The notes under the pieces: generated by a model
Databases searched by the model: none
The model's input: the letters and a program-made list of their open reading frames with translations, nothing else
Told to the model about the DNA's origin: nothing
Made by a program: the position numbers and the translations under genes
Origin: a bacterium
Lineage (GTDB): Bacteria > Cyanobacteriota > Vampirovibrionia > Gastranaerophilales > UBA9971
DNA length: 43,733 nucleotides
Reading direction: 5' to 3'
Assembly (NCBI GenBank): GCA_037147175.1
Contig: JBAWVS010000021.1
Coordinates: 1 to 43,733, forward strand
In this document: positions 9,141-29,812 of the stretch, one piece after another
Layout of the letters: each line of letters begins with the position of its first letter
How positions within the stretch are numbered: the first letter of the stretch is position 1

Positions 9141-10733
9141 ATGAGAGTTTTACCGCAGGATTTAATGTGGAAAGCTAGAGAAGGCAGAGGCTATATAGAT
9201 CAGATTAAACAAATGGGAAGCGAATTTGTTATCGGACAAATTCTTAATTTGATAGGGACTTCAAGTAAAAATAATTTAATAGGTTTAACAAAATTATTCG
9301 AAAAAATTGCCGGTTCAGAAGGATCAGTAAGACATGCCAGAAGAATGAGATGGCTTTTTGAGACAGAACATGCTCATTTGGGCTGGTGGCAAAAAATTAT
9401 TAACGAATTAGATCCAAACTGCAGAAATAAATTTCTTCTGAATTTCTTTGTTCATGGCTATTATGGCGATAATCAAAGAAAAAGAGCGCAATTCTTCAAG
9501 AAAAATGATTTCTATCCGCCTACTGTTTTGCTGGCAAGCATTACACAGCATTGTAATTACAACTGCGCAGGTTGTTGGGCGCATAATTACGAAGTAAAAG
9601 AAGATATGTCTTTTGAACAATGGAAAAAAGTCTTTGACGAAGCCAGAAATGAAATGGGTATCCACATGTTTCCTATAGTTGGCGGAGAACCTTTTATCAG
9701 AAAAGATTTTCTGGAATTGTGCGAGCAGTATCCTGACTGCATTTTCCTTGTTTTTACAAACGGTGCTTTGTTAACGGAAGAAAAAATTAAACAAATTAAA
9801 AAACTGGGCAACGTTGCGCCTATGTTCAGTCTTGGCGGATGGGAAGAAGCTACAGACAAAGTCAGAGGCGAAGGTGCTTATAAAACAGTAATGGAAAAAA
9901 TGGATTTACTCAAAAAAGAAGGAGTTTTCTTCGGAGTAAGTCTTGCCGCAACAAGAGAAAGCGCAGAAGAAATAGTTTCTGATGAATATATGAAGATGCT
10001 TAGCGATAAAGGAAGCCTCTGGACCTGGGTTTTCCACTATGTTCCTGTTGGAGAAAATCCTGATCCGTCTTTAATGCCTACAGCAGAACAAAGAGAAATG
10101 ATTAAACAGGCTGTATATAACACAAGAAATACACTTCCTATGATGACAGTTGATTTCTGGGGCGACGGTCCTGAAATGATGGGCTGTATCGCAGGAGGAA
10201 GACAATATTTCCACGTTAATGCAAAAGGTGATTGCGAACCATGCACATTTGTTCACCTTGCGACTCATAATGTTAAAACTTCTACTCTTACCGAGGCTCT
10301 TGCGAGTCCTTTTATGAGCGCAGTCAGAAAAGGCGCACCTTATGACGGCAATTCACTTCGTCCGTGTATGATTGTTGACAGACCATGGGTGTTAAGGGGC
10401 TATTACAAAAAATTCAAGCCTTATGAAACCCATAGAGGCGCGGCTGATTACTTGACAAAACCTGAAATTATGCAACAAATCGATGAATATTCCAAAGATG
10501 TTGCCAGAGTTATGGATAAGAATTGGCAAGAAGATTATTATATGACATTATTTCCGCTCCCCGGTGAATATTACCACGACAGAAAGATTCTTTGCAGCAG
10601 CAATGTCCCTGTAGATGGCGTTCATGGCGGATGTGAAAGTAATGGAGGCTGTAAATGCGGAAAAGATTTGACAGCGCTTCAAAAAAATGTTGAAGCCGTA
10701 AGGGATCTGACAGAAGAAAAATTAGAAGTGTAA
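9141..10733 (+). CDS. Radical SAM protein with C-terminal Cys-rich region
   Basis: 530-aa enzyme. The radical SAM cluster motif CX3CX2C is C138, C142, C145 in T-Q-H-C-N-Y-N-C-A-G-C-W, followed by the SAM-binding G-G-E-P motif. Further Cys residues, M-G-C-I-A-G-G and G-D-C-E-P-C-T-F, look like SPASM-type auxiliary cluster ligands, and the last 40 residues hold H-G-G-C-E-S-N-G-G-C-K-C-G-K. The N-terminal 130 residues are helical and not part of the core. It should make a 5'-deoxyadenosyl radical; the substrate is unknown. GGAGAG precedes the ATG. The ferredoxin gene 115 bp downstream is a plausible electron donor. Confidence 0.88.
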   Translation: MRVLPQDLMWKAREGRGYIDQIKQMGSEFVIGQILNLIGTSSKNNLIGLTKLFEKIAGSEGSVRHARRMRWLFETEHAHLGWWQKIINELDPNCRNKFLLNFFVHGYYGDNQRKRAQFFKKNDFYPPTVLLASITQHCNYNCAGCWAHNYEVKEDMSFEQWKKVFDEARNEMGIHMFPIVGGEPFIRKDFLELCEQYPDCIFLVFTNGALLTEEKIKQIKKLGNVAPMFSLGGWEEATDKVRGEGAYKTVMEKMDLLKKEGVFFGVSLAATRESAEEIVSDEYMKMLSDKGSLWTWVFHYVPVGENPDPSLMPTAEQREMIKQAVYNTRNTLPMMTVDFWGDGPEMMGCIAGGRQYFHVNAKGDCEPCTFVHLATHNVKTSTLTEALASPFMSAVRKGAPYDGNSLRPCMIVDRPWVLRGYYKKFKPYETHRGAADYLTKPEIMQQIDEYSKDVARVMDKNWQEDYYMTLFPLPGEYYHDRKILCSSNVPVDGVHGGCESNGGCKCGKDLTALQKNVEAVRDLTEEKLEV

Positions 10734-10848: not shown

Positions 10849-11046
10849 ATGCCAAGAAGTATAATTCAGGATAGATGCGTTTCATGCGGAGTTTGCTATA
10901 ATTCTTGCCCTGTAGACGCTGTTGTAAAAAATGAAAATAAATATTCAATCGTACAAGAAGAATGTGTAGATTGCGGAACATGCAAGCGTATCTGCAAAGC
11001 AGAAGCTGTAGAAGGTCAAGATCCTATTTATGCCGATATTAGATAA
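10849..11046 (+). CDS. 2[4Fe-4S] ferredoxin
   Basis: 65-aa bacterial-type ferredoxin. The first cluster ligands are C10, C13, C16 and C20 (C-V-S-C-G-V-C-Y-N-S-C-P). The second set is C39, C42, C45 and C49 (C-V-D-C-G-T-C-K-R-I-C-K). It carries low-potential electrons in the cytoplasm. AAAGG lies before the ATG. Its stop overlaps the start of the next gene by 17 bp, so it is translationally coupled to the dehydratase/activase-like proteins, and it is likely their reductant. The second cluster lacks the usual Pro after the last Cys, which is common in the family. Confidence 0.95.
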   Translation: MPRSIIQDRCVSCGVCYNSCPVDAVVKNENKYSIVQEECVDCGTCKRICKAEAVEGQDPIYADIR

Positions 11047-12199
11047 CAATAATAAAACTGAAAAAGAAAAAATCGTAGCATTTCCTCAAATGGGAAATAT
11101 TAGGATTCCTGTAACCGCTGTTTTAAAGGCTATGGGGGCCAATCTTTATCTTTCACCCGAAAATAATAAAGAAGCTCTTTCTCTGGGAACCAGACACAGC
11201 ACCGAAACAGTTTGCCTGCCTTATAAACTCAATTTAGGAAATTATATTCAGGCGTTGGAGGGCGGAGCTAATGTTTTGTTGATGTTTTCCGCGCCGGGAA
11301 CCTGTCGTCTAGGAAATTATACAAAAATGGCTGAAGCCAAGTTAAAAGAGCTTGGATACGATTTTGAAATGGTCGTTTTTGATATGTATAAAGGAAAATT
11401 TCTGGAAATCGTCAAAAAATTCGGTTATGCGACTGGAAATAAAAGTATTTCCAATGCATTTAAGGGCATAAAAATTGGTTTGGCTAAATTTGATGCTATG
11501 GACGAAATTGAAAGAAAACTTTTTTATCTTAGACCACGCGAAATAGAAACAGGAATGGCAGAAAAGATTTATTTCTCCGGCAGAAGCTCAATAGACAGTG
11601 CTGTTACTGTCGAGGAAGTTAAAAACGCAGTTCAGGAAACGATGAACAAATATAATTCAATAAAAATTGATTCTAATAAAGAGGTTTTAAAAGTTTATAT
11701 AACCGGAGAATTTTTTGTTCTCCTTGATCCGTTTACAAATATGAACATTGAGAAGGAATTGGGGCTTTTAGGCGTTGAAGTCGAAAGGCAGATAATGCTT
11801 TCTGACTGGACAAATCAGACACTTATTCCTAAATGGTACAGAAAAACCGAAACCCACAAAGAAAGAGCAATTCGTACCGCAGGTAAATACCTGACAAGAC
11901 CTATTGGCGGTGAATGCATAGAAACAGTCGGAGATACTGTATATGCAGCCGAACGCAATATCGACGGAGTGGTTCATGTCGGACCATTTAACTGCATTCC
12001 GGAGATTGTAAGTCAATGTATACTTCCGAATGTGAGTAAAAAAGAAAATATTCCCGTAATTTCCCTTCTTATGGACGAACAAACAGGAAAAGCGGGTCTG
12101 GTTACAAGACTTGAGGCTTTTGTAGACCTTATTCGCAGACAAAGAAAAAACAAGTCATACTGTCATTCAAGCATTGCGTTATGCGCTTGCACAAAATGA
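11030..12199 (+). CDS. 2-hydroxyacyl-CoA dehydratase/activase-like Fe-S protein (copy 1)
   Basis: 389-aa protein of the CoA-dehydratase-activase-related group (COG3580-like), soluble and without the ASKHA ATPase domain. Candidate cluster ligands are the Cys in E-T-V-C-L-P-Y-K, P-G-T-C-R-L-G and P-F-N-C-I-P-E, all shared with copy 3 except that copy 1 has an extra Cys in G-G-E-C-I-E. It starts inside the ferredoxin gene. Copies 1 and 3 are clear paralogues along their full length. Known relatives hold [4Fe-4S] or double-cubane clusters and carry out low-potential reductions. The last 14 residues (SYCHSSIALCACTK) look added, encoded by an inverted GTCATT/AATGAC sequence. The substrate is not evident. 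Confidence 0.8.
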   Translation: MPILDNNNKTEKEKIVAFPQMGNIRIPVTAVLKAMGANLYLSPENNKEALSLGTRHSTETVCLPYKLNLGNYIQALEGGANVLLMFSAPGTCRLGNYTKMAEAKLKELGYDFEMVVFDMYKGKFLEIVKKFGYATGNKSISNAFKGIKIGLAKFDAMDEIERKLFYLRPREIETGMAEKIYFSGRSSIDSAVTVEEVKNAVQETMNKYNSIKIDSNKEVLKVYITGEFFVLLDPFTNMNIEKELGLLGVEVERQIMLSDWTNQTLIPKWYRKTETHKERAIRTAGKYLTRPIGGECIETVGDTVYAAERNIDGVVHVGPFNCIPEIVSQCILPNVSKKENIPVISLLMDEQTGKAGLVTRLEAFVDLIRRQRKNKSYCHSSIALCACTK

Positions 12200-12245
12200 C
12201 AAATAATTTAAACGTAAAATACAGCCGTACAAGGAGAATATATAA

Positions 12246-13313
12246 ATGAAAATTGGTATCCCCAGAGCGTTAGGTTATTATAATTACTACCCGTTCTGGT
12301 TCGGGTTTTTTGGAAGTCTCGGCATTGAGATTGTTTTATCCGATAATACAAACAAAAAGCTTGTTTCAGAAGGAAGTGCGCTTGTTGTTTCCGAGACATG
12401 TCTTCCTGTAAAGATATATATGGGGCATGTGCTTAATTTAATAGAAAAAAAAGGTGTGGATATTATTTATTCACCGAGTATTCAGTCAATAGACCATAAA
12501 ATTTATAATTGCTCAAAACTCAGAGGTCTTCCTGATCTGGTAAGAAATGTTGTCAAAAAGGATTTTCTGCTTATTGAGCCGACTTTAGATAAGTCAGAAA
12601 AGAATCAGGGGCTTTATCAATATTTGTACGAATCAGTTGCGCCTCTTGGAATAACTGATAAAAAAGCTATTAAGCAAGCTTCAAAGGTTGGATGGTCATA
12701 TCAAAATAATTATGTCGGTATGGCTAAAGACGGAATGCATCCGATGGAAGCAATGGAAACTGCTATAAAAGGAAAAGTCGTAATTAAAAGCCGTAAAAAT
12801 GACTATCCTATAAGTATTGCTGTTCTTTCACACGGATATAATCTTTATGATGACCATGTGAGTATGAAAATATTTAAAAAACTTGAGAATCTCGGAGTAA
12901 AAGCTTACGTTTCAGAAAATCTTTCAAAGGCGCAGATGCAAGAAGGCTTAAAAGTTTTAAATACCAATCTTTACTGGGCAAATGAGCTTGAAATCTCAGG
13001 AGCGGCAGGCAGTTTTATGAAAAATAAAAATATTGACGGTATTCTTACACTTACCGCATTTGGTTGCGGGCCGGATTCTTTGATGATTGAAAGAATTACA
13101 AGATATTCAAAACGCCTTCAAAAACCGCTTCTTAACCTTACAGTTGACGAGCATACAGGCGAAGCAGGGTTTATAACGAGAATAGAAGCCTTTACCGATA
13201 TGCTTTTCAGGAAGAAAAGAACCAGTATCATTGATAATCTTAATAGACAGGTTCAAATCGACATTGACAGACACGAAATTGATACACAGGATTCAATTAT
13301 AAAAGTCGGATAA
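12246..13313 (+). CDS. DUF2229-type acyl-CoA dehydratase activase-related protein (copy 2)
   Basis: 355-aa protein with the DUF2229 N-terminus: M-K-I-G-I-P-R-A-L-G-Y-Y, then F-F-G-S-L-G-I-E-I-V-L-S-D and S-E-T-C-L-P-V-K. Further Cys sit in Y-N-C-S-K-L-R-G and A-F-G-C-G-P-D-S, then T-V-D-E-H-T-G-E-A-G. In known large activases this domain is fused behind ASKHA ATPase domains; here it stands alone. GGAG precedes the ATG. It is spaced 46 bp from copy 1 and 100 bp from copy 3, the same operon by direction. It probably pairs with copies 1 and 3 as a cluster-bearing complex. Confidence 0.82.
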   Translation: MKIGIPRALGYYNYYPFWFGFFGSLGIEIVLSDNTNKKLVSEGSALVVSETCLPVKIYMGHVLNLIEKKGVDIIYSPSIQSIDHKIYNCSKLRGLPDLVRNVVKKDFLLIEPTLDKSEKNQGLYQYLYESVAPLGITDKKAIKQASKVGWSYQNNYVGMAKDGMHPMEAMETAIKGKVVIKSRKNDYPISIAVLSHGYNLYDDHVSMKIFKKLENLGVKAYVSENLSKAQMQEGLKVLNTNLYWANELEISGAAGSFMKNKNIDGILTLTAFGCGPDSLMIERITRYSKRLQKPLLNLTVDEHTGEAGFITRIEAFTDMLFRKKRTSIIDNLNRQVQIDIDRHEIDTQDSIIKVG

Positions 13314-13413
13314 TATTTTGTAAAATTGAAAATTCTTTGTTATCAAGAGATTTTTCGGGTTAAAGCACTCGGAAAAACAATTAAATAATAATAGGTGTTA
13401 ACCGGAGGTTTAA

Positions 13414-14523
13414 TTGAAAATTTCCTTTCCTCATATGGGAAATCTCGCAATTGGAGTATCAGGAGCCATTAGGGTTCTTGGTGGCGAAGTTGTGCTGCCT
13501 CCTTATACAAGCAAAAGGACTCTGTCTTTGGGGGCAAAATACAGTCCTGAAGCTATTTGTCTTCCTTACAAATTAGTGCTTGGAAATTATATCGAAGCAA
13601 TAGAGGCCGGTGCTGAAGCTATACTTATGATAGACAGCCCGGGAACGTGCAGGCTGGGGCAGTATAGTGATATTGCAAGAACCGCTTTGACCGATCTGGG
13701 ATATAATAATGTCGAATTTGTTAATTTTGATCTTTACAAAGGAAAATTATTTGAGATTTATTCCGGATTTAAATACGTAACAGGCAACGGAAACCCTTTA
13801 GATCTTATTTATGCAGTAAGAGTAGGTGTTTTGAAGATTAAAATTGCTGATAAATTTGATAAATTGCTCAGTTATTACAGGGCCAGAGAAGTTATAACAG
13901 GCAGTGCCGACAAACACTATAAAAAGGCTATAAATCTTGTTGATCAGGCTCTAACTATTAAAGAATGCAATGAAGCCCTTAAATTTGGTGTTGAATCCAT
14001 TTCAAGTGTAGAAATAGATTCAACAAAACAAGTTTTGAATGTTGATATAACAGGCGAAATTTATATTGTACTGGATAGATTTTCCAATATGGAAATAGAA
14101 AAAGAACTTGGCAGGCTCGGTGTGCAGGTTCACAGGCAAATTAATTTATCAGACTGGATTGACAGAAGTATATATCCGTCCATATTGAAGTTTAGTGAGT
14201 CACACAGCGAAAAAACCCATAGATTCGCTCAGGAATTTATAAAAAGAGATATTGGCGGTGATGCTGTTGAATCTATAGGTGATGCCTCTATAGCCGCATC
14301 GTCAAATACTGACGGCATAATTCATCTTTCCCCGTTTACCTGCATGCCGGAAATAATTGCTCAAAATATACTTCCAAATGTAAGAAGAGAAAAGGATATT
14401 CCTATTTTATCTCTTGTTATGGATGAATATACAGGAAGAGTCGGTTTTGTAACCAGACTGGAAGCTTTTGTTGATTTGATAAAAAGAAGAAGCCCCTCGA
14501 AACAACTTTTATGTCCGTCATAA
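13414..14523 (+). CDS. 2-hydroxyacyl-CoA dehydratase/activase-like Fe-S protein (copy 3)
   Basis: 369-aa paralogue of copy 1, with E-A-I-C-L-P-Y-K, P-G-T-C-R-L-G-Q-Y, P-F-T-C-M-P-E and the C-terminal V-M-D-E-Y-T-G-R-V-G-F-V-T-R-L-E-A-F-V-D. The start codon is TTG (13414), fixed by GGAGG five nt upstream. The extra Cys of copy 1 (G-G-E-C) is Ala here. No ASKHA ATPase gene is present in the window, so any ATP-driven electron step must be encoded elsewhere or be absent. It converges on acsC with 30 bp between the stops. Function unknown beyond low-potential redox. Confidence 0.8.
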   Translation: MKISFPHMGNLAIGVSGAIRVLGGEVVLPPYTSKRTLSLGAKYSPEAICLPYKLVLGNYIEAIEAGAEAILMIDSPGTCRLGQYSDIARTALTDLGYNNVEFVNFDLYKGKLFEIYSGFKYVTGNGNPLDLIYAVRVGVLKIKIADKFDKLLSYYRAREVITGSADKHYKKAINLVDQALTIKECNEALKFGVESISSVEIDSTKQVLNVDITGEIYIVLDRFSNMEIEKELGRLGVQVHRQINLSDWIDRSIYPSILKFSESHSEKTHRFAQEFIKRDIGGDAVESIGDASIAASSNTDGIIHLSPFTCMPEIIAQNILPNVRREKDIPILSLVMDEYTGRVGFVTRLEAFVDLIKRRSPSKQLLCPS

Positions 14524-14553: not shown

Positions 14554-15951
14554 TTATTGTTGTTTGACTTGTTGTTCTGTAGTTTTGCTTGATGCTTGCT
14601 GTTTTTGGTAGCTTCTTAAGAAATCAACTATATCAACAGCTTCGTTTGCACCGATTACAACTTCCCAATCAGGCAATTCGTCTTCAATTTCTTCTTTTAA
14701 AGAATAAACATAGCCGGGAATTATAAGTTTTCTATGTTTAACAATATTTTCAATTTCGTAATTTTTTATGGCTTTTGCTATTATTTCACCGTTGAATTTG
14801 TCGGCAGACCACGCTGTAAGTACGCTCATCCCGTCTGATGGAGTAATTACAAGATATGACGGAATATTCGAAGCTTCAATTTCGCCAACCACGGTAAAAT
14901 AGGTCAAAGCAAAGTTTGTTGTAGCTATTACCGGAGAGTTTTCATCAGTTTCGCCTATTGGGTAGAGTTTTGCGTCTATTTGAAGTGGTTTTTCTGGGTC
15001 TGTGTAGATATTTTGTCTTAGCGTAAGCAAAGAATAAGCTATAGCTTCATCAAAGTTTTCTAAAACTATTAAATTTGCGTATTTACAAAGTAAAGCAGAT
15101 GCCCATATACCCTGCTCTATCAAATCGTCTGATAAATCCGTAATATCTTCTGTAAACATCATTACAGGGAAGCCTAATGGTTTAAATTTGTCATCAATAG
15201 CAGACCGTCTTATATGAGTAAGATTTTCTATAAGGCTTTTCTGTGACTGGTTGTTAAGGCTTAAAACTATGTTTTGTGCATTGACTTCAACAAGTTTAGA
15301 AGAAATATCTGCTAATTCCTGTATAGAACTTCCCGATACAACTACAGGAACATTATATTTTTTTTCTATTTCGGCTATTTCCTGAGGTAAAGCGTTTTTT
15401 ATTGAGATTAATGGTTTTGAATCCTTAATCTCATCGAGTATTTTTTTTATTTTTTCAATATTTTCACTCACCAAAATCATCGGAAATTTGGATTCAGCAA
15501 GTTTTTTAGCTTTGTTTTCATAAGTTTCATCGGAGTCAATAAGAGCTACAGCGCTTATTTTTAAATCTTCTCCAACCCGTTCAACGCAATAATTAGAAAT
15601 TTTATTAAGTTTTTCATCAAAATTTTCATCTGAACTTTCAAGCTTTACAGCTATACAGGTGGAATTTACAAATTTTTTGTCATGCCGGAACATTACTGTT
15701 TCATTTCCGATTTTAAGAAGGTTCTCTGAGCTTCCAAACTCTATTTCTGCCTGTTGTATCTGATTTGCTTCTTCAAAAGTTGAACGCAATTCGTCTGTTA
15801 TAAATTCGCATTTATCGATAGACGTTTCGTTTTTGGCAAGCTTCATCGCAAAAGCCATACAGGTCGGGAAGCTGCATTTTTTGCAGTTTGCATTCGGTTC
15901 TTTTTTTCCGCCTGGCAGGTATTTAAATATTTGTAATCCTGTAAGTTTCAT
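14554..15951 (-). CDS. acsC: Corrinoid/iron-sulfur protein large subunit (acetyl-CoA synthase complex gamma)
   Basis: 465-aa protein. The N-terminal cluster motif CX2CX4CX16C is exact at C23, C26, C31 and C48 (C-K-K-C-S-F-P-T-C). The rest is the TIM-barrel and B12-binding part of CFeSP gamma. The protein carries a methyl group on cobalt between methyltetrahydrofolate:CFeSP methyltransferase and acetyl-CoA synthase, or to a methionine synthase. AGGA in the end of acsD serves its ATG, and only 5 bp separate the genes. The tail (QKQQASSKTTEQQVKQQ) is low-complexity. No CODH/ACS catalytic subunit or AcsE is in the window. Confidence 0.92.
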   Translation of the reverse strand: MKLTGLQIFKYLPGGKKEPNANCKKCSFPTCMAFAMKLAKNETSIDKCEFITDELRSTFEEANQIQQAEIEFGSSENLLKIGNETVMFRHDKKFVNSTCIAVKLESSDENFDEKLNKISNYCVERVGEDLKISAVALIDSDETYENKAKKLAESKFPMILVSENIEKIKKILDEIKDSKPLISIKNALPQEIAEIEKKYNVPVVVSGSSIQELADISSKLVEVNAQNIVLSLNNQSQKSLIENLTHIRRSAIDDKFKPLGFPVMMFTEDITDLSDDLIEQGIWASALLCKYANLIVLENFDEAIAYSLLTLRQNIYTDPEKPLQIDAKLYPIGETDENSPVIATTNFALTYFTVVGEIEASNIPSYLVITPSDGMSVLTAWSADKFNGEIIAKAIKNYEIENIVKHRKLIIPGYVYSLKEEIEDELPDWEVVIGANEAVDIVDFLRSYQKQQASSKTTEQQVKQQ

Positions 15952-15956
15952 CGTTT

Positions 15957-16883
15957 TTAGTCCTGATATGTTTTGTCAATAAAGCCTTGAACATAATTAA
16001 TTGCTTCAGGATGACGCATAACGGTAATATTTGCTCCTGAAACCAGCATTGATGTTGCTGTTATGCTTTCCCAAGATATAGCCCTTGTCGTTAAGTCGCC
16101 CCATTCTGAAGGAACGTTATTTGATTTCGCTTCTTTAGTTTTCCAGGCTTCTTCTCCGACAAATGCAATTACCGGCATGTTGAGCATTGTATCGCCCTGG
16201 AGCGCTGCCTGTTTAATTCTTTCAATAATACTGTATGCATAATCTAATCCGTAGCCAAGACCGCCTGTATTTGGATCAATTATTATTTTATCAGCATCAA
16301 ACCCAAGTTCTGTAAGAAGAATATTGAGCTGTTTTGTCAAATTTATGTCTATTGGGGTTCTTGCAATAATATTGTGACCGCATTCTTTTATAATAGGGGC
16401 GATTTGCCTGAAATTTTCTTCTTCTACAGCGCCTATTGTGCATTTTCTGTCGGCAGTTTTTGCGAGCTCGGGTAAAAGCTTTGCATCTACTTCACGCCTG
16501 AATGTTCCGATTAAAAATAGCGGCAAATCTGTCAATTTTAGGATTTCTTTGAGCTGTTCTTTACTTTTTTCGATCTCAAAATCAATATTCTCGCAGTTTT
16601 CTATATTAAATTTAACAGCGAGTGCAGAAAAATCTTTTTTTAAAGCTGATTTAACGCATTCAACGGGATTATAGATATTTTCTCCCCAGAAATTTTTTAA
16701 TAAAGTCGGATAATTTGGAAGGATATTAGTCGGAATTTCGCAAACTATAAGAGGCTTGGAGGTGTTATTAGTTTCCGAATGCAAAAAATTCAGAGAACTT
16801 TCTCCTCCGACTTTCAAGCCGTTTAAATCAACTTCTCTTATAGCTGTTTTGTATTCTTTTTTAGTTGGAGTGTAAGTGTTCAT
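15957..16883 (-). CDS. acsD: Corrinoid/iron-sulfur protein small subunit (acetyl-CoA synthase complex delta)
   Basis: 308-aa CFeSP delta subunit. The diagnostic block is D-P-N-T-G-G-L-G-Y-G-L-D-Y-A-Y-S-I-I-E-R-I, followed by M-P-V-I-A-F-V-G-E-E-A-W-K-T-K-E-A. It is a TIM-barrel protein that dimerises with AcsC and shields the corrinoid. It is the first gene of the acsD-acsC operon; no clear ribosome site is seen before the ATG at 16883, and the upstream gap is filled by a repeat. Length is normal for the family. Confidence 0.92.
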   Translation of the reverse strand: MNTYTPTKKEYKTAIREVDLNGLKVGGESSLNFLHSETNNTSKPLIVCEIPTNILPNYPTLLKNFWGENIYNPVECVKSALKKDFSALAVKFNIENCENIDFEIEKSKEQLKEILKLTDLPLFLIGTFRREVDAKLLPELAKTADRKCTIGAVEEENFRQIAPIIKECGHNIIARTPIDINLTKQLNILLTELGFDADKIIIDPNTGGLGYGLDYAYSIIERIKQAALQGDTMLNMPVIAFVGEEAWKTKEAKSNNVPSEWGDLTTRAISWESITATSMLVSGANITVMRHPEAINYVQGFIDKTYQD

Positions 16884-16960: not shown

Positions 16961-17320
16961 ATTCGAATTGCTAAATCGCCAAAATTGTCATTGCGAGCAG
17001 AGCGAAGCAATCTATAAAAAATAAAATGGATTGCTTCGTAGAGTGCTTTGGCTGCCCCCTCCTTTTTTGATAATTAATCAAAAAAGTGGGTACCCTTCGC
17101 AATGACGTGTAAATTTAATTAATCACGGTCGCCAATTAATTTATCTATACAAATTGTCATTCTGAGGGTTTTAACCCGAAGAATCTGTCCAGCAAGCATT
17201 TTTAGCTAAAATCATAAATTGGACAGATCCTTCGCTTTGCTCAGGATGACATTCTCAAAAATCAATATTTGCAATAATTTTAGCTAAGCAGGCGACTCGA
17301 GTTAATTGGCAATTCGAGTT
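16961..17320. repeat. Composite repeat: family A followed by family B
   Basis: Starts ATTCGAATTGCTAAATCGCC and ends GGCAATTCGAGTT. The left part (to about 17,110) holds the GTCATTGCGAGCAGAGCGAAG type A core; the right part (about 17,155-17,255) holds the type B core, GTCATTCTGAGGG...CCCGAAGAATCTGTCC. An additional hairpin CCTTTTTTGATAATTAATCAAAAAAG sits in the middle. The composite fills almost the whole 434-bp gap between acsD and the thioesterase gene, and its right end overlaps the thioesterase stop codon. Confidence 0.75.
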
Positions 17321-19153: not shown

Positions 19154-19187
19154 GTTTTGCAATGACAAAACAAAATCAAATTAACCT

Positions 19188-19305
19188 AATCGAATTGTTA
19201 AATCGTCAAAATCGCCATTGCGAGCATAGCTAAGAAATAGATTGCCTGCGTCGAGTCTAAGCCTCTCATCGAAAAGATGCGTAAATTTATTTATAACCTG
19301 TTTCT
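19188..19305. repeat. Degenerate family A repeat
   Basis: AATCGAATTGTTAAATCGTC followed by CGCCATTGCGAGCATAGCTAAG matches the left half of the 16,961 element with several substitutions, then TCGAGTCTAAGCCTCTC matches the 2476 element. The remainder of the 377-bp gap to the next gene holds a terminator on the left and a promoter on the right. Confidence 0.55.
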
Positions 19306-19402: not shown

Positions 19403-19431
19403 TTGTTGTTACAATTGAAATTGGTTATAGA
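19403..19431 (+). promoter_or_regulatory. Promoter of the Met/Cys-rich gene
   Basis: TTGTTG (19403-19408) and TATAGA (19426-19431) are separated by 17 bp and lie 22 bp before the start codon. The match to a vegetative promoter is moderate. Confidence 0.45.
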
Positions 19432-19452
19432 AAGAGAAAGGTAAAATTTATA

Positions 19453-19941
19453 ATGAACAAATGTGAAATGTTAAGAGAAAATCATGGAATGGAAGTTGAC
19501 AACTGCAATATGTGTATTAATTCCGATGAAATGCAGATGCTTTATTGTTGCAAAATGATGATGAATAATTGCGAATCTATTATGAAATCAATGAGAATGG
19601 ATGACTGTTGTCCTGAAATGATTTCACACCAATGTGAATTGATGGTGTGCAGTTGTGAAATGATGATGAAAAACTGCGAAATGATGATGAATTGTCCTGA
19701 AAAATCAAAAAATTGTGATCTAATGTGCAATTGTCAAAATATGATAAGAAATTGTCAAATTATTATGAACTGTTGCGAAATGATGATGAAAAATTGCGAA
19801 ATGATTATGAATTGTCCTGAAAAAATGAAAAATTGTGAAATGATGATGAATTGCTGCGAAATGACGGCAAAAAATTGTCAGATCATGATGTGTAATTCTG
19901 AACAAATGATGAAAAATTGCAATGTAACAATGAAGAACTAG
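19453..19941 (+). CDS. Met/Cys-rich repetitive protein, probable metal-binding
   Basis: 162-aa protein with 27 Cys and 38 Met by my count, about 40% of all residues. It is built from units such as N-C-E-M-M-M-K-N-C-E-M-M-M-N-C-P-E-K, with Cys recurring about every 6-7 positions. A helix of this periodicity would place Cys and Met along one face, as in Cys-lined four-helix copper storage proteins (Csp). No signal peptide, so cytosolic. AAAGG lies 11 nt before the ATG. A DtxR-family regulator lies 0.3 kb downstream on the other strand. Binding of soft metals such as Cu(I) is an inference from composition; I recognise no named family. Confidence 0.8.
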   Translation: MNKCEMLRENHGMEVDNCNMCINSDEMQMLYCCKMMMNNCESIMKSMRMDDCCPEMISHQCELMVCSCEMMMKNCEMMMNCPEKSKNCDLMCNCQNMIRNCQIIMNCCEMMMKNCEMIMNCPEKMKNCEMMMNCCEMTAKNCQIMMCNSEQMMKNCNVTMKN

Positions 19942-19972
19942 TTTTATTTAAAAAAATTAGTTCTTTTTGTTT
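19935..19972 (+). terminator. Terminator of the Met/Cys-rich gene
   Basis: GAACTAGTT and AATTAGTTC pair around an AT-rich loop, followed by TTTTTG. A second, stronger hairpin follows at 20002. Confidence 0.5.
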
Positions 19973-20001
19973 AAAGTGTCCTAAAAAAGAAATCAATCAA
20001 T

Positions 20002-20035
20002 AAAAGCTTTGTTTTTGTTATAAAACAAAGCTTTT
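20002..20035. terminator. Strong bidirectional hairpin terminator
   Basis: AAAAGCTTTGTTTT and AAAACAAAGCTTTT form a perfect 14-bp stem around TGTTAT. It lies between the Met/Cys-rich gene and the convergent DtxR gene. Confidence 0.7.
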
Positions 20036-20053
20036 ATATTTTAGTTTATAAAT

Positions 20054-20253: not shown

Positions 20254-20784
20254 TTATTTTGTCATTCCGCAGCAATTTTTATTGCTTAATTCAGGTTCTT
20301 CCCGTTTTTTACTGATGCAATTTACGCATTTTTCGCTCAGTTTTTCATTTTGGGAAAAATGTTTAAAACTTTTTGTCCATTTCGGTTCTTTGCAGGAGCA
20401 TGTGTCCATAAAAGTTAAAAACATAACAAATTTTTTCATAACTTCATCAGGGATTACATGCTCGACCTGAGAAGCACTCTCTTCGGATAGTTCAGAGCTT
20501 ACAGACAGAACGTTTTCAAAAAAATTTTTAATAATGTCATGTCTTTTTAATAGAGCTTCAGCTTTATCAAGTCCTTCCTCTGTTAATGTAATTATTCCGT
20601 AAGGTTCATAATTAATTAAATTTCTTTCTGAGAGGGTTCTTAATGCTTCAGATACAGAGGAAGCTCCAATATTTAGCTGTTTTGAAACATCTTTAACTCT
20701 TGCAGCTTTTTTTTCTTTAACAATGTTAAAAATAGCTTTTAAATAATTTTCTAAACTTGCTGTTAAATTTTTGTTGTTTTGCAT
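20254..20784 (-). CDS. DtxR/MntR-family metalloregulator with Cys-rich C-terminus
   Basis: 176-aa transcriptional regulator. An N-terminal winged helix (about 7-70, L-E-N-Y-L-K-A-I-F...V-S-E-A-L-R-T-L) is followed by the dimerisation/metal domain with R-H-D-I-I and V-E-H-V-I-P-D-E. Against DtxR and MntR, E108 and H109 are kept, but the Met10/Asp8 ligand is N13, the MntR Glu11 is K16, and the Cys102/Glu99 position is Ser. A Cys tail follows: C129, C131, C153, C156, C171, C172. I chose the ATG at 20784, with AGG seven nt upstream, over 20832, which lacks a site. It diverges from the MMMCCCC peptide gene, a likely target. Confidence 0.88.
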   Translation of the reverse strand: MQNNKNLTASLENYLKAIFNIVKEKKAARVKDVSKQLNIGASSVSEALRTLSERNLINYEPYGIITLTEEGLDKAEALLKRHDIIKNFFENVLSVSSELSEESASQVEHVIPDEVMKKFVMFLTFMDTCSCKEPKWTKSFKHFSQNEKLSEKCVNCISKKREEPELSNKNCCGMTK

Positions 20785-20882
20785 AAGCTTACCTATTGAC
20801 TTTCTGTAATTTTTTGGATTAACTATAAACATACGGGAAGCCGAAGTTATTTTTAATCCCCAAATATATAGTGGAGTTCCTA

Positions 20883-21002
20883 ATGAATAATTTTATCATT
20901 AAAACACAAAATAGTTCACAGAAACATTCAACAACAACAATGATGATGTGTTGCTGCTGCATGATGCGAATGAGGTCTGCCGGTAACTTTTGTTGTTTTT
21001 AA
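20883..21002 (+). CDS. 39-aa Met/Cys-rich peptide
   Basis: Short gene with ATG at 20883, GGAG six nt upstream, and a strong terminator 22 bp after the stop, so it forms a complete small transcription unit. The first half is polar (MNNFIIKTQNSSQKHSTTT); the second half is M-M-M-C-C-C-C-M-M-R-M-R-S-A-G-N-F-C-C-F. The composition echoes the Met/Cys-rich protein 1 kb away. It is divergent from the DtxR-type regulator with a 98-bp shared gap. It could be a soft-metal chelating peptide, or the core of a modified-peptide precursor; no modifying enzyme is adjacent. Coding status rests on the ribosome site, terminator and composition. Confidence 0.6.
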   Translation: MNNFIIKTQNSSQKHSTTTMMMCCCCMMRMRSAGNFCCF

Positions 21003-21023: not shown

Positions 21024-21063
21024 AAAAAACCCGCCGGATCTTAAATGAACAGGCGGGTTTTTT
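21024..21063 (+). terminator. Terminator of the MMMCCCC peptide gene
   Basis: AACCCGCC and GGCGGGTT form a GC-rich perfect stem with a 16-nt loop, followed by T6. It is the clearest intrinsic terminator in this part of the window. Confidence 0.9.
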
Positions 21064-23597: not shown

Positions 23598-24971
23598 ATG
23601 AACTATTACGAAAATATTCTGGAAAAAATCGGGCATACCCCTTTAATAAAACTTTCAAAAATTGCAAAAGACTTAAACGTAAATATATTTGCAAAAGTAG
23701 AATATTTTAATCCGGGCGGAAGCTCTAAGGATAGAATTGCACTCAAAATGATAGAAGAAGCAGAAAAACAAGGCTTGCTAAAACCGGGAGGTACTATAAT
23801 AGAAGCAACCGCCGGGAATACAGGGGCAGGCTTGGCATTGGTAGCTGCAAGTAAAGGTTATAGGTGCATTTTTGTTCTTCCTGACAAAATGAGCGAGGAT
23901 AAAGTAAATCTTCTGAAAGCTTATGGGGCAGAAATTGTTATTACTCCGACATCTGTAGCTCCTGACTCTCCTGAAAGCTATAACGGAGTTGCAGACAGGC
24001 TTGCCAGAGAAATTTCCGATTCTTTCAGGCCGGGTCAGTTTACAAATTTGAAAAATCCTGAAGCTCATTATTTAACTACAGGTCCGGAAATTTGGGAAGA
24101 TCTGGACGGAAATATTGATGTTTTTGTCGCTGGCATGGGGACAGGCGGAACAATTTCCGGTACAGGCAAGTATTTAAAAGAAAAAAATCCTGATATAACT
24201 GTAATAGGAGCAGACCCTGAAGGTTCTATTCTTTCGGGAGATTCACCAAAATCATACAAGGTGGAAGGTATTGGAGAAGATTTTGTTCCGATAACTTTTA
24301 ACAGGCAGGTTATAGATGAAATGATACGTGTTTCTGATGCGGAATCATTTGAAATGACAAGGAGATTGGCGAGGGAAGAAGGGATTTTGGCAGGCGGATC
24401 GGCAGGTACAGCTTTAGCTGCGGCATTAAAATATGCCGAACGTTTACCTGCCGGTAAAAATATTGTTGTTCATCTGCCTGATTCAGGCAGAAATTATTTA
24501 ACAAAAATCTTTTCGGACGACTGGATGTATGAAAACGGTTTTCTTTCTCAGGCTCCTGAAAAAGTTACTGTCGGTGAAATACTTAAAACAAAAGAAAAAA
24601 TGCCTTCTATAATAGCCATAAATGCTGATGATACAGTAATTAATGCGGCAAATATTATGAGAGAAAACGGTATTTCGCAGCTGCCTGTTCTTGAAGATAA
24701 AAAAGTCGTTGGCGGGTTAAATGAAGTTACTTTGATAAAATTATTATATGATGGTATAAATTTAAGTGAAAGCAAGGTGGCAACTGTAATGGGAAAAGCT
24801 CTTCCACAGCTTGATGAGTCTGTAAATATATCCGAGTTATACAGAATTTTGCTGGCAGGTTACGGAGGAGCAATTATTACAAAAAATAGCCATGCAGAAG
24901 GCTTTTTGGCCAGAATAGATCTTGTTAATTTTTGGATAAAAAGAATAAAAATAAGGAGTACAGTAGTATGA
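23598..24971 (+). CDS. Cystathionine beta-synthase / cysteine synthase family, with C-terminal CBS domain pair
   Basis: 457-aa PLP enzyme. K44 in P-G-G-S-S-K-D-R is the PLP lysine; E-A-T-A-G-N-T-G-A-G-L-A-L binds substrate; G-T-G-G-T-I-S-G-T-G binds the PLP phosphate. Residues about 330-450 form two CBS modules (I-A-I-N-A-D-D-T-V...I-S-Q-L-P-V and V-M-G-K-A-L-P-Q-L-D). This architecture is seen in bacterial cystathionine beta-synthases, which join serine or O-acetylserine with homocysteine. GGAAAGG precedes the ATG at 23598. Its stop overlaps the next start (ATGA), coupling it to cystathionine gamma-lyase, which fits reverse transsulfuration (homocysteine to cysteine). Confidence 0.9.
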   Translation: MNYYENILEKIGHTPLIKLSKIAKDLNVNIFAKVEYFNPGGSSKDRIALKMIEEAEKQGLLKPGGTIIEATAGNTGAGLALVAASKGYRCIFVLPDKMSEDKVNLLKAYGAEIVITPTSVAPDSPESYNGVADRLAREISDSFRPGQFTNLKNPEAHYLTTGPEIWEDLDGNIDVFVAGMGTGGTISGTGKYLKEKNPDITVIGADPEGSILSGDSPKSYKVEGIGEDFVPITFNRQVIDEMIRVSDAESFEMTRRLAREEGILAGGSAGTALAAALKYAERLPAGKNIVVHLPDSGRNYLTKIFSDDWMYENGFLSQAPEKVTVGEILKTKEKMPSIIAINADDTVINAANIMRENGISQLPVLEDKKVVGGLNEVTLIKLLYDGINLSESKVATVMGKALPQLDESVNISELYRILLAGYGGAIITKNSHAEGFLARIDLVNFWIKRIKIRSTVV

Positions 24972-26131
24972 AATTTTCAACAAAAGCAATACGTGTAGGG
25001 CAAAGTTCAGACAAGTCCACAGGTGCAACGATTGTGCCGATTTATCAAACAGCAACTTTTACTCAGGATGAAATAGGTATTTTTAAAGGATTCGAATATA
25101 CCAGAACAGGCAATCCTACAAGATCTGCTCTTGAAGAATGTCTGGCTTCTGTTGAAAACGGAAATTACGGTCTTGCCTTTTCTTCAGGACAGGCTGCATC
25201 AACAGCAGTTCTTTCTATTCTTAAGCCAGGCGATCATGTTGTTACGGCAAACGACCTTTATGGTGGTACTTACCGTTTATTTGAACAAGTATATTCACCG
25301 TTGGGAATTTCATTTACATATGTTGACGGGACGAACTTAACAGAGTTTAAAAATGCAATAAAACCCGAAACAAAGCTTATATGGATTGAGACACCAACTA
25401 ATCCGCTTTTAAAACTTTATGATATCTCAGGAATTTCAGAAATTGCGAAAAATAATAATGTTTTGCTTGCCGTAGATAATACGTTTGCTACTCCTTATTT
25501 TCAGCAGCCGCTGGAATTAGGTGCTGATATTGTAGTTCACAGTACTACAAAATACATTAGCGGTCACTCTGACGTACTCGGCGGTGCTGTAATAGTTAAA
25601 GATACCGACCTGTACGAAAAAATAAAGTTTTATCAGAATGCAACAGGTGCGGTTCAAAGTCCATTTGATTCATGGCTGACACTCAGAGGTCTAAAAACCC
25701 TTGCTGTAAGGATGAGACAACATGAAGAAAATGCATTGACCATAGCAGCTGCTTTGTCAAATAATAGACAGGTTTTGTCAGTAAGCTATCCGGGGCTTTC
25801 TAACCATCCGCAGCATGAGCTTGCCAAACAACAAATGAACGGTTTTGGCGGAATGATTTCATTTTTTATTAAAGGCGGATTTGAAGAAGCAAACAGTTTT
25901 GCAAAAAACCTGAAGATTGTTTCCCTTGCTGAAAGTCTTGGCGGTGTAGAATCTCTCGTCTGTTATCCTCCTGCAATGTCACATGCTTCTATTCCTCAGG
26001 AAGAGAGAGTAAGAAGAGGAATTACAGATAATTTAATCAGGCTGTCTGTTGGTATTGAAGATGTTGAAGACATTCTTGCAGATTTGGAGCAGGCGTTATC
26101 AAAAATCAATTCTCCTGTTTCAGTCGGTTAA
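24968..26131 (+). CDS. Cystathionine gamma-lyase / gamma-synthase family PLP enzyme
   Basis: 387-aa Cys/Met metabolism PLP enzyme. The PLP lysine lies in S-T-T-K-Y-I-S-G-H-S-D; other markers are Y-T-R-T-G-N-P-T-R near the start, S-S-G-Q-A-A-S, and C-terminal E-S-L-V-C-Y-P-P-A-M-S-H. Lyase and synthase cannot be separated by eye. The adjacent beta-synthase favours lyase, releasing cysteine from cystathionine. I set the start at 24968, the ATG in the ATGA overlap, with AAGGAG upstream; an in-frame upstream start lies inside the preceding gene. Length is normal. Confidence 0.9.
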   Translation: MKFSTKAIRVGQSSDKSTGATIVPIYQTATFTQDEIGIFKGFEYTRTGNPTRSALEECLASVENGNYGLAFSSGQAASTAVLSILKPGDHVVTANDLYGGTYRLFEQVYSPLGISFTYVDGTNLTEFKNAIKPETKLIWIETPTNPLLKLYDISGISEIAKNNNVLLAVDNTFATPYFQQPLELGADIVVHSTTKYISGHSDVLGGAVIVKDTDLYEKIKFYQNATGAVQSPFDSWLTLRGLKTLAVRMRQHEENALTIAAALSNNRQVLSVSYPGLSNHPQHELAKQQMNGFGGMISFFIKGGFEEANSFAKNLKIVSLAESLGGVESLVCYPPAMSHASIPQEERVRRGITDNLIRLSVGIEDVEDILADLEQALSKINSPVSVG

Positions 26132-26171
26132 GAAATAGAATCAAGTATTTTATCGGAGAAAGTAATATTAA

Positions 26172-27296
26172 ATGTTCACAAATGTTTTAGCCTATAAAAA
26201 TGCAAATCCGTTTATTCAACAAAAAAAGCAAAATAACCAAGTTTGTTTTACAGGAAAAGAGAAAATTTTAACTCTTTCTTCTGAAGTTTTAAAAATTGTT
26301 GATAAAGTTTCAATTTCAAGATTGGAAGAGCATTTAAATAAGCTTACTTCTCCTGAGACGGAAGGACGCGGCGTTGGACAAAAAGGTATAGAAATTGCCA
26401 AAAAATACATAGCTGATAAATTTGGAGAGTTTGGATTAAAGCCTGTTGAAAATTTGGGATTAAAAGATTATTTCCAAAATTATATAACACCTCAATATTC
26501 AACCTCTTCATTTGGCTACGGGAATTATGTTAAAGGTCGTGTAGCCGCATGGGGGTCAAATCTTGAAGTAATAACATCTAATGTTCTCGGAATGATAAAA
26601 GGCGCAGAAAATCCTGATGAATTTCTTGTTATAAGCGCTCATTATGACCATTTGGGAAAGGATGAACGAACAAATATTTTTTTCCCCGGAGCAGATGACA
26701 ATGCCAGCGGTGTCGCTGCTTTGATGGAAGTATCAAGAATTCTGGCAAAAGAAAAACCTCCTAAAAAATCAGTAATATTTGCTGCTCTTTCTGGTGAAGA
26801 AGCATCTAAAACCGGAGCTGAAAAGTTATCTAAAGAATTACTGGCAAGAGGAATTGCGAACAAAACAGAAGTATTAAATCTTGAAATGCTTGGAGGCATC
26901 GGGGGAGATAGTTTGGATATTTGGTCCCGAAGAAATACTTTGGCTAAAAATCTTATTGATAAGTTAGAAGAAGCCGGCGAAATTGTACAAACAAAAACAC
27001 GGGTGCATCTTGGAGCTGATCCGGATTCAGATGCGCTAAAATTTAACGCAAAAGGTATTCCCTCTGTTTGTGTGGCATGGGACTACACTTTAGCAGGAAA
27101 TCATCCTTATTATCATACTTCTCAGGATACTGCGGACAAAATCAATAAAAATGGGTTTAAGGAAGCAGTCAGGCTAATCACTGCTTCCAGCTATCTTTTA
27201 GCACATAAATTATCAAATAAAACTATCTCATTTACATCTAAAAGAATAAAGTCTAATAAATTAAAAGAAACCGGAGAACGAGCATGGGTAAGCTAA
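26172..27296 (+). CDS. M28 family zinc peptidase
   Basis: 374-aa zinc aminopeptidase-type protein. The complete M28 ligand set is visible: H157 and D159 in S-A-H-Y-D-H, D175 in G-A-D-D-N-A-S-G, E209/E210 in S-G-E-E-A-S, E238 in L-N-L-E-M-L, and H315 in Y-Y-H-T-S-Q-D-T. The N-terminus has V-C-F-T-G-K, the lineage tag, and no signal peptide, so it seems cytosolic, unlike many M28 enzymes. Its last 13 bases overlap the ThiS-like gene, so the two are translationally coupled. It could remove residues from the carrier or from a carrier adduct (inference), or simply be a housekeeping peptidase. Confidence 0.88.
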   Translation: MFTNVLAYKNANPFIQQKKQNNQVCFTGKEKILTLSSEVLKIVDKVSISRLEEHLNKLTSPETEGRGVGQKGIEIAKKYIADKFGEFGLKPVENLGLKDYFQNYITPQYSTSSFGYGNYVKGRVAAWGSNLEVITSNVLGMIKGAENPDEFLVISAHYDHLGKDERTNIFFPGADDNASGVAALMEVSRILAKEKPPKKSVIFAALSGEEASKTGAEKLSKELLARGIANKTEVLNLEMLGGIGGDSLDIWSRRNTLAKNLIDKLEEAGEIVQTKTRVHLGADPDSDALKFNAKGIPSVCVAWDYTLAGNHPYYHTSQDTADKINKNGFKEAVRLITASSYLLAHKLSNKTISFTSKRIKSNKLKETGERAWVS

Positions 27297-27490
27297 AAGT
27301 CACTATAAACGGTAAAGAAACAGAAATAGCTGAAAATTTTACTATAACTAATCTTCTGGAAGATTTAAAGGTTACAGGTTCAATGTTTGTTGTTGAGAAA
27401 AATCTGGAAATCGTGCCTAAAGAGAATTTTCATGTAAAAATTAATGATGGTGATAAACTTGAAATCGTTGGATTTTTTGGAGGCGGTTAA
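27284..27490 (+). CDS. ThiS/MoaD-like sulfur carrier protein ending in GGG
   Basis: 68-aa beta-grasp carrier: K-L-K-V-T-I-N-G-K-E-T-E-I, then L-L-E-D-L-K-V, F-V-V-E-K-N-L-E-I-V-P and D-G-D-K-L-E-I-V-G-F-F-G-G-G. The Gly-Gly end is the part adenylated by an E1-like enzyme and turned into a thiocarboxylate. The V-G-F-F-G-G-G end resembles ThiS. The start lies inside the M28 gene and the stop is 23 bp before MnmA. No thiG, thiH or thiC is nearby, so thiamine synthesis is not indicated by context; tRNA thiolation or amino-acid sulfur supply is. Confidence 0.88.
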   Translation: MGKLKVTINGKETEIAENFTITNLLEDLKVTGSMFVVEKNLEIVPKENFHVKINDGDKLEIVGFFGGG

Positions 27491-27513
27491 AAAACTTAAT
27501 TTAAGAGGTGAGC

Positions 27514-28587
27514 ATGAAAATTTTGGTCGGAATGAGCGGTGGAGTAGATTCTTCGGTAGCTGCATTATTATTAAAAGAAGCCGGTCATGAAGTCATAGGC
27601 GCTACTATGTCAATATGGGGAAAAGGGGATTTGGCAGGGTCGTCAGGAAAAAACGCATGTTACGGTCCTGATGAAAAAGAAGATTTAGTAGAAGCTGAAA
27701 GAGTTTGCAAAGAGCTGGGGATTCCTTTTCATGTGTTTGACTGCGTTGAAAAATATGAAGAAATCGTTCTTAAAAACTTCAAAAATGAATATCTTTCGGG
27801 AAGAACTCCAAATCCCTGTATATGGTGCAATAGTCTGATAAAATTTGGCGTTTTGCCTTTGTTGGCAAAAGAACACGGAATTGAATTTGATAAATTTGCA
27901 ACAGGACATTATGCAAAAATAAAATATGATCTGGAAAATAATCGTTATTATCTGAAAAAATCTTTGGATGAAAAGAAAGATCAGACTTATTTTATTTACA
28001 GGCTTACTCAGGAACAGCTTTCACAAATTATATTTCCGTTGGGCGATTATTTAAAAGAAGATGTAAGAAAATTGGCTGAAACAAGCGGGCTTCATGTATT
28101 TGACAAAGAAGACAGTCAAGATTTTTACGGTGGTGATTATAACGAATTGCTCTGCGTAAAAGGGCAATCAGGAAATATTGTCGACAAAGAAGGAAATGTT
28201 CTCGGAACACATGAAGGTATCTGGAATTATACACTGGGACAAAGAAAAGGTATAGGCATTGCACATACTGAGCCTCTTTATGTAATTGCCCTTGATAAAA
28301 ACAAAAACGAGGTTATAGTTGGCACAGAGAAAGATACTTACAGCGATTCTCTTATTGCAACAAACCTGAACTGGATTGCGTTTAATGAACTTCATTCTGA
28401 AATGAGGATTACGGCAAAAATTCGTTCTTCTCAATCACCAAAAGAAGTTTTTATTAAAAACAATGATACAAAAGATATTCTTGTAAAATTTAGTGAACCG
28501 CAAAAAGCTGTTACTCCGGGCCAATCAATAGTTTTTTATCAGGGAGATATTGTTTTGGGCGGTGGAATAATAGATGAGGTTCTATAG
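27514..28587 (+). CDS. mnmA: MnmA-like tRNA 2-thiouridylase with altered second active-site region
   Basis: 357-aa PP-loop enzyme. The ATP motif G-M-S-G-G-V-D-S-S is at 6-14, C102 and C105 lie in N-P-C-I-W-C-N, and T-L-G-Q-R-K-G-I-G-I and the C-terminal beta domain are present. MnmA puts sulfur on U34 of Lys, Glu and Gln tRNAs. The second catalytic Cys, expected in S-Q-[DE]-I-C-F, is missing: residues 201-209 read S-Q-D-F-Y-G-G-D-Y; C214 lies further on. GAGG sits 5 nt before the ATG at 27514 (a GTG at 27508 is the alternative). It sits between a ThiS-like carrier and an E1, suggesting an unusual sulfur source. Confidence 0.88.
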   Translation: MKILVGMSGGVDSSVAALLLKEAGHEVIGATMSIWGKGDLAGSSGKNACYGPDEKEDLVEAERVCKELGIPFHVFDCVEKYEEIVLKNFKNEYLSGRTPNPCIWCNSLIKFGVLPLLAKEHGIEFDKFATGHYAKIKYDLENNRYYLKKSLDEKKDQTYFIYRLTQEQLSQIIFPLGDYLKEDVRKLAETSGLHVFDKEDSQDFYGGDYNELLCVKGQSGNIVDKEGNVLGTHEGIWNYTLGQRKGIGIAHTEPLYVIALDKNKNEVIVGTEKDTYSDSLIATNLNWIAFNELHSEMRITAKIRSSQSPKEVFIKNNDTKDILVKFSEPQKAVTPGQSIVFYQGDIVLGGGIIDEVL

Positions 28588-28592
28588 TAAAA

Positions 28593-29330
28593 ATGTATAA
28601 CAAAGAACGCTATAACAGAAATATCCTCGTAAATGATATTGGAGAAGAAGGTCAGCTCAAGCTTCTTGGCTCAAAAGTTTTAGTTGCAGGAGCGGGAGGA
28701 CTGGGTTCTACTGTGATTGCAAATATTGCTTCTCTCGGTATAGGCAATATCGGTATTGTTGATAATGATAAACTTGAATTGTCTAATCTTAACAGGCAAT
28801 ATATCCATAAATTCGATAATATAGGCAAAAACAAAGTTGAATCCGCAAAAGAGTGGATAAACAGTTTTAATCCTGATATTAATGTTGAAATCTACCAAAC
28901 AAGGCTCGATGAAGACAATTATAAGGATATTATAAGCGGCTATGACATTATTATAGATTGTTTTGATTCTTACAAGTCCAAATTTTTGCTCAATAAAATA
29001 GCTGTTCAAAATAATAAAACATTAATTCATGGAGGAGTTACAGAATTTTACGGACAGGTTCTTGTTATTATTCCTGACAAAACCGCCTGCTTAAGCTGTT
29101 TAATTCCTGATGCAAATACTGATGCGTATGTGATAAAAGGTGTATTGAGTCCGGCAGTTACCACAATAGCGTCAATACAATCAATGGAAGCGGTAAAAAA
29201 TCTTCTGGGAATCGGTAATCCTCTAACAAACCAGCTTTTGACTTATAATGGACTAAAACAGGAATTTAAGAAAATTGCTGTTTCTAAAAATACCAGTTGC
29301 CCTTTATGCAGCAGTGTTAGCCTTTCATAA
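28593..29330 (+). CDS. ThiF/MoeB-type E1-like adenylyltransferase
   Basis: 245-aa enzyme that adenylates the C-terminal Gly of a ThiS/MoaD-type carrier. It starts R-Y-N-R-N-I-L, the family N-terminus. The nucleotide motif G-A-G-G-L-G is at 33-38, then D-N-D-K-L-E-L-S-N-L-N-R-Q (R68), D-C-F-D-S at about 122-126, and zinc ligands C166/C169 and C236/C239. The Cys often found just before the G-V-L-x-P segment is Tyr179 by my alignment, as far as I can judge by eye. No rhodanese domain is fused. It begins 5 bp after the MnmA gene, with GAGG inside that gene's end. Its client should be the GGG-ending carrier. Confidence 0.9.
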   Translation: MYNKERYNRNILVNDIGEEGQLKLLGSKVLVAGAGGLGSTVIANIASLGIGNIGIVDNDKLELSNLNRQYIHKFDNIGKNKVESAKEWINSFNPDINVEIYQTRLDEDNYKDIISGYDIIIDCFDSYKSKFLLNKIAVQNNKTLIHGGVTEFYGQVLVIIPDKTACLSCLIPDANTDAYVIKGVLSPAVTTIASIQSMEAVKNLLGIGNPLTNQLLTYNGLKQEFKKIAVSKNTSCPLCSSVSLS

Positions 29331-29416: not shown

Positions 29417-29812
29417 TTGAAAATTAAAATAACAAAAAAACTTTTTATTTGTTTCTTTTTAATTTCATACATCTTTTTTGCGGCAGGGTTAAATGTTTTT
29501 GCAAAATGTTTTGATTTTTTAAATCAGCCTTGTTCATGTTGTCATTCAAAAATTATTTCCGCTTCTGTAATAGATTTAGATGAAAATCAGTGTCAATGTT
29601 CCGTAAAAACAAAAACTCATTCCGCTTTTATAATTCAATCATTGCCAAACCTGCAACAACTTGCAGAATGGGAAAAAACATTTAATTCGGTTAACGTTTT
29701 ATCAGATTTGATAATATTTACGGATACTAATTACAGCAAAATCCCGCTAAGACCTAAAATAGCTTTAAATAAAAATCTTGATATGCTTCGAACAGTGATA
29801 CTCCTGAACTAA
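29417..29812 (+). CDS. Exported protein with CxCC and CxC motifs
   Basis: 131-aa protein with a signal peptide (K-K-L-F-I-C-F-F-L-I-S-Y-I-F-F-A-A-G), cleavage likely after N-V-F-A. The mature N-terminus reads K-C-F-D-F-L-N-Q-P-C-S-C-C-H-S-K, then Q-C-Q-C-S-V-K. The remainder is ordinary polar sequence. The start is TTG at 29417, with AGGG nine nt upstream. Clustered Cys next to His suggests metal binding or a redox role outside the membrane, which is an inference. The next gene is a second exported Cys-rich protein. I do not recognise a family. Confidence 0.7.
   Translation: MKIKITKKLFICFFLISYIFFAAGLNVFAKCFDFLNQPCSCCHSKIISASVIDLDENQCQCSVKTKTHSAFIIQSLPNLQQLAEWEKTFNSVNVLSDLIIFTDTNYSKIPLRPKIALNKNLDMLRTVILLN

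Follow-up and report, generated by a model that had tools for sequence, protein, structure and literature searches.

The window analysed here, a 43,733-nucleotide stretch of DNA from a bacterium of the Gastranaerophilales, contains at 19453–19941 on the forward strand an open reading frame (ORF; ATG to TAG, stop codon included) whose 162-residue product raises the question of what a bacterium might do with so sulfur-rich a protein. A composition count confirmed the 38 Met and 27 Cys given by the initial annotation, which make up 40% of the residues (65/162), alongside 23 Asn, 16 Glu and 12 Lys; the 19.2 kDa protein carries 65 sulfur atoms. In the other 34 window genes compared, Met plus Cys did not exceed 7%, and with 4.35% taken as the local background frequency, a binomial model puts the chance of 65 among 162 residues at roughly 7e-45.

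To describe the order of these residues, we compared their spacing with shuffled sequences. The core unit is a near-heptad, x-N-C-E-M-M-M, and the 6–7-residue spacing of Cys/Met units noted in the initial annotation held up, with periods of 6.8 residues for Cys and 6.9 for Met that none of 1,000 shuffles matched in strength. Cys pairs at distance 7 (C-x6-C) were enriched (10 versus 4.2 expected), as was C-x3-M (15 versus 6.2 expected, reached in 0 of 5,000 shuffles), a spacing at which thiolate and thioether would be separated by a single turn of a helix. Depleted spacings were C-x3-C (CXXXC; 1 versus 4.3 expected), M-x3-M (0 versus 8.5) and M-x2-M (1 versus 8.6), and neither CXC (2 versus 4.3) nor CXXC (1 versus 4.3) was enriched. 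That Cys would line one side of helices, as had also been proposed, was only partly borne out: the helical moment of Cys, Met and aliphatic residues combined was marginally above that of shuffles (p=0.046), but Cys by itself was not in excess at the angle of an alpha helix (p=0.67), because its steps of 7 are interrupted by steps of 6, of 1 (doublets) and others.

Coding evidence, predicted fold and search for relatives

Several features indicate that the ORF is a real coding sequence, probably under selection. The upstream stop is followed by a single possible start codon, and 11 nt 5' of the ATG we read a purine-rich, ribosome-binding-like AAAGG (19437–19441, +). A weak promoter-like TTGTTG-17-TATAGA (19403–19431, +) was seen by eye and was absent from the promoter scan listing. 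At the 3' end, a hairpin across the stop codon is followed by a T-run (terminator 1, 19932–19966, +, z -4.76), and a perfect 16-bp bidirectional hairpin (terminator 2, 20000–20037, z -6.38) stands between the ORF and a convergent gene. Codon choice is similar to that of neighbouring genes, and the other two frames are rich in stops. The ORF is composed of units of about 21 nt; its most regular repeat block (19653–19864, +; units of about 18–21, 39–42 and 60 nt) has nine copies of a 51-nt family in which every spacing is a multiple of 3, and a 101-nt duplication (19633–19733 and 19753–19853, 120-nt offset) retains 80% identity. The best pair of copies spans 27 codons at an offset of 40 codons; of its 13 nucleotide differences, 8 fell in third positions (p=0.035 if all positions changed at equal rates), a weak test of selection because the ORF has no orthologue. 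No signal peptide was apparent by eye, and the product is probably cytosolic, as the initial annotation had it.

Upstream of the ORF and outside it, 19187–19297 (+) is part of an intergenic repeat (CATTGCGAGCATAGC...) scattered through the genome in some 40 or more copies (40 matches), two more of which lie in the window near 16963–17011 and 2488–2606. Farther upstream are two CdhD-family (PF03599) genes (14554–16883, −), the first with an Fe–S domain, that resemble acetyl-CoA synthase corrinoid protein subunits, and three consecutive genes of CoA-enzyme activase/2-hydroxyglutaryl-CoA dehydratase type (11030–14523, +; DUF2229, HGD-D; the first two profile-tested), which are preceded by a radical SAM gene (9141–10733).

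To look for relatives of the protein, we searched outward from its own genome, where it matched only itself apart from one match at E=0.77. None of the ten genomes of the family set had the ORF, the two congeners in the set being only 80–83% complete, and across 382 genomes of the class nothing besides the self-match fell under E=0.003; the best of these matches were short and of low identity, and many contained stops. The pattern C-x-M-M-M-x-x-C occurred four times in this genome and as single, chance-like matches in 14 other class genomes, and among the at least 120 stretches listed for C-x-M-M-M-x-N-C in GTDB contigs there were single matches and no comparable Met/Cys-rich gene. Pfam gave only a sub-threshold Talin_R4 match and no metallothionein family. 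PDB, viral contigs, plasmids and phages gave no match, although the BLAST low-complexity filter may mask relatives in the plasmid and phage searches; the window had no Rfam match. Thus the homologue search, which the initial annotation had named as a test of its proposal, found none from genus to class, nor in Pfam, PDB, viruses, phages or plasmids; this is one half of what that annotation said would refute it, the other being the lack of a transcript. The protein appears to be an orphan, its gene known from a single bacterial species, and we regard it as probably real and lineage-restricted.

Structure prediction with AlphaFold without an alignment gave helices throughout the full-length chain (pLDDT 50.6, pTM 0.34) and, for residues 82–162 modelled as a single sequence, a two-helix hairpin (pLDDT 71.4, pTM 0.53) with its break at N-C-P-E. 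A PDB fold search with this hairpin returned only generic helical hairpins (E >= 1.5). Single-sequence models tend toward helices for compositions such as this Met/Cys repeat, so the predicted helical fold is suggestive only. Of the helical bundle anticipated earlier, the helices and a C-terminal hairpin were thus recovered at low to moderate confidence, with no significant PDB fold match.

The sulfur-gene neighbourhood and its candidate leader peptides

The convergent neighbour (20254–20832, −) encodes a DtxR/MntR-like regulator (PF01325, PF02742) with a Cys-rich C-terminal extension, CxC...CxxC...CC. Its relatives adjoin mnmA-like and/or metY-/cysK-like genes in five genomes (G389, G387, G006, G004 and G391); a sixth (G200) has mnmA- and MoeB-like genes nearby, and in two others (G005, G007) the relatives adjoin a hemL-like gene instead. 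These gene names are readings of the sequences, profile-tested for the G006 enzyme only. Since its relatives adjoin mnmA, metY and cysK, we take this genomic company as suggesting a sulfur or Fe–S regulator rather than a metal-uptake regulator. Within the window, 23598–29330 (+) encodes cystathionine beta-synthase, cystathionine gamma-synthase/lyase, an M28 peptidase, MnmA and a MoeB/ThiF-like protein, followed by BioB at 30.2–31.2 kb. Directly 3' of the MoeB-like gene, 29417–29812 (+) encodes a secreted-looking 131-residue protein with a CSCC...CQC cluster and no Pfam family. The sulfur-locus context does not decisively favour either a soft-metal store or a sulfur-rich reserve.

Divergent from the regulator gene and separate from the 162-residue protein is a leader-like 39-residue Met/Cys peptide containing MMMCCCCMM (20883–21002, +), followed by a GC-rich terminator (21025–21062, +) with a possible antiterminator arm at 20973–20984. 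We found related leaders at G000:C9 54133 (L216), at G003:C156 14421 (L217) and at G006:C95 2754–2864 (L209, −), the last again divergent from a DtxR-like gene. In the order window, C9, G003 and G006, the four precede a 594-residue ORF, an AAA-type ATPase gene, a serine acetyltransferase gene (cysE) and a homocysteine synthase gene. All encode 30–45 residues with an M-I/M-M-C-C core, and each is followed by an intrinsic terminator and a possible antiterminator. The first single-sequence E-values among them were weak (0.007, 0.02 and 0.10), and the strong values obtained later came from a profile built with the same peptides included. Pairing of the leader end with the 5' arm of the terminator was better than in shuffles for G006 (0.001) and C9 (0.002) and, taken alone, was not significant for the window (0.126) or G003 (0.086). 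An order-wide search yielded only weak matches beyond the four (E >= 0.005). We consider these peptides a candidate family of Met/Cys transcription attenuators; the ORF at 20883 fits the layout expected of such a leader, in which a short ORF of regulatory codons would precede alternative hairpins and a regulated sense gene. In Actinobacteria, Cys leader peptides that lack terminators are reported to precede cys operons (PMC1262725). These share with the 39-residue ORF their runs of Cys codons and the position of a short ORF before sulfur-amino-acid genes; in the family described here, by contrast, a terminator follows each leader and Met codons join the Cys codons.

Candidate roles of the protein

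Our leading reading, held tentatively, is that the protein is a helical thiolate/thioether binder of soft metals. Duplication of the roughly seven-codon unit x-N-C-E-M-M-M would have produced a string of amphipathic helices, each unit presenting Cys and the Met at +3/+4 on one face, with Asn, Glu and Lys mostly opposite. C-x3-M pairs within a helix, together with Cys or Met from other helices, could then serve as ligands, so that Cu(I), Ag(I), Cd(II), Hg(II), As(III), or Zn/Fe would be bound and thereby buffered. The working principle of copper storage proteins (Csps) and metallothioneins would thus have been arrived at independently. Among Cys-rich proteins of the bacterial cytosol, most of those whose function is known bind metals. 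The ordered Cys and Met with their C-x3-M excess, the helical predictions (pLDDT 71 for the C-terminal hairpin), the coding signature with its in-frame repeat spacings and terminators, and a convergent neighbour from the metal-dependent DtxR/MntR family are all consistent with metal binding. However, no relative was found among metal proteins, CXXXC, CXXC and CXC are not enriched, the full-length model is weak, and the DtxR-like neighbour is tied in its relatives to sulfur genes, not metal transport. Furthermore, the 99.4%-complete host genome yielded neither an HMA domain, which all 14 control genomes have, nor a CsoR-family repressor, nor a Cu-ATPase above the cut-off, and so offers no known soft-metal system with which the protein could be paired.

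The absence of a copper system is more readily accommodated if the protein stores or absorbs sulfur amino acids, being synthesised while Met and Cys are abundant and broken down in shortage. We regard this as possible though doubtful and rank it only slightly after metal binding. Its extreme Met plus Cys content is what such a reserve calls for, with 65 sulfur atoms in a 19.2 kDa chain. The ORF also borders a sulfur-amino-acid locus with a candidate Met/Cys attenuator and a DtxR-like regulator: the leader lies 940 bases downstream and has relatives before cysE and homocysteine synthase, several relatives have the regulator next to mnmA and to metY or cysK, and genes for cystathionine beta-synthase, cystathionine gamma-synthase/lyase, MnmA and a MoeB-like protein lie at 23.6–29.3 kb. 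Yet the ORF converges on the regulator gene and is outside the sulfur operon, only one genome shows this neighbourhood, storage does not need a strict Cys/Met order, and the literature searches turned up no earlier case of a bacterium keeping sulfur amino acids in a protein. It is unlikely, in our estimate, that we are instead looking at a young ORF, enlarged as a short Met/Cys-coding unit was duplicated in tandem, and weakly expressed or unsettled in function. Its orphan status even in genus and family, where the genomes of the two congeners are incomplete, the duplications within it (21 to 120 nt) and the weak promoter match would fit a recent origin; the uniformly in-frame repeat spacings, the stop-rich alternative frames, the third-position excess between copies, the terminators at the 3' end and the cost of accumulating Met and Cys unused speak against it.

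Two further roles seem less probable still. Met-rich surfaces act as oxidant sinks, and the composition would suit a sink for oxidants or electrophiles, in which exposed Met and Cys would take the oxidation and methionine sulfoxide reductases and thioredoxin would then restore them; we consider this improbable, as no redox gene was identified near the ORF and the upstream nitronate monooxygenase-family gene is set apart by its own terminator-like hairpin and the dispersed repeat. The ORF might also act in being translated, with stalling at its 65 Met/Cys codons altering termination and read-through yielding an RNA antisense to the regulator gene. In its favour, terminator 1 extends across the stop codon, the DtxR-like gene faces the ORF and shorter Met/Cys leaders lie nearby; but 162 codons far exceed the 30–45 of the leaders found, and no sense gene lies between the ORF and the strong bidirectional terminator 2. 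Because no sense gene follows, we rejected a leader role as the main account of the ORF, and we judge the sensor role very improbable.

If the protein does bind metal, it would represent independent soft-metal buffering by Cys–Met pairs of a heptad repeat, in an organism whose copper homeostasis, if any, is not recognisable. As a reserve, it would instead be a bacterial protein store of sulfur amino acids, of which the literature searched gave no example. We think it unlikely, though possible, that one of two novel forms will prove correct, either a Met/Cys reserve or buffer tied to a sulfur-amino-acid locus that would sense Met/Cys by leader-peptide attenuation or a C-x3-M helical soft-metal buffer unlike Csps and metallothioneins.

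Comparison with copper stores, metallothioneins and seed proteins

Plant Met- and Cys-rich seed storage proteins, for example the sulfur-rich zeins of maize (PMC3420316), resemble the 162-residue protein in being rich in both residues and in its possible use as a sulfur reserve. They differ in that the protein described here is bacterial, an acidic soluble repeat outside any storage body, and without sequence match to them. Bacterial metallothioneins such as SmtA and MymT are likewise small and thiol-rich. In contrast to them, the protein is at least three times longer, very Met-rich and predicted to be helical, has no Pfam match, and contains only two CXC motifs, not above chance.

The analogy drawn in the initial annotation was with the four-helix copper storage proteins. 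Csps direct their Cys into the core of a four-helix bundle that assembles as a tetramer, bind many Cu(I) ions tightly and protect against copper. As an argument for membership the analogy found no support: the protein matched neither DUF326 (PF03860) nor the solved Csp chains, CXXXC is depleted, and the searches for HMA, CsoR and Cu-ATPase were all empty above the cut-off. DUF326 was absent from the host genome and from 20 related genomes; the search itself works, since three control genomes gave matches. For these reasons copper-specific storage was demoted, and copper is not favoured as the metal, having no special support. Csp3 proteins are four-helix bundles with 18–19 Cys, in which CXXXC serves eight Cu sites in MtCsp3 (PMC5171941), and in Csp bundles the open end has Met alongside Cys (PMC7558416). 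Unlike Csp3, the 162-residue protein lacks DUF326 and a dominant CXXXC, contains 23% Met in a heptad-like repeat, and is encoded in a genome without a copper system. What it shares with Csp3 is a probable cytosolic location, an abundance of Cys (27 here, 18–19 in Csp3) and predicted helices, and it could hold a soft metal in a broadly similar way.
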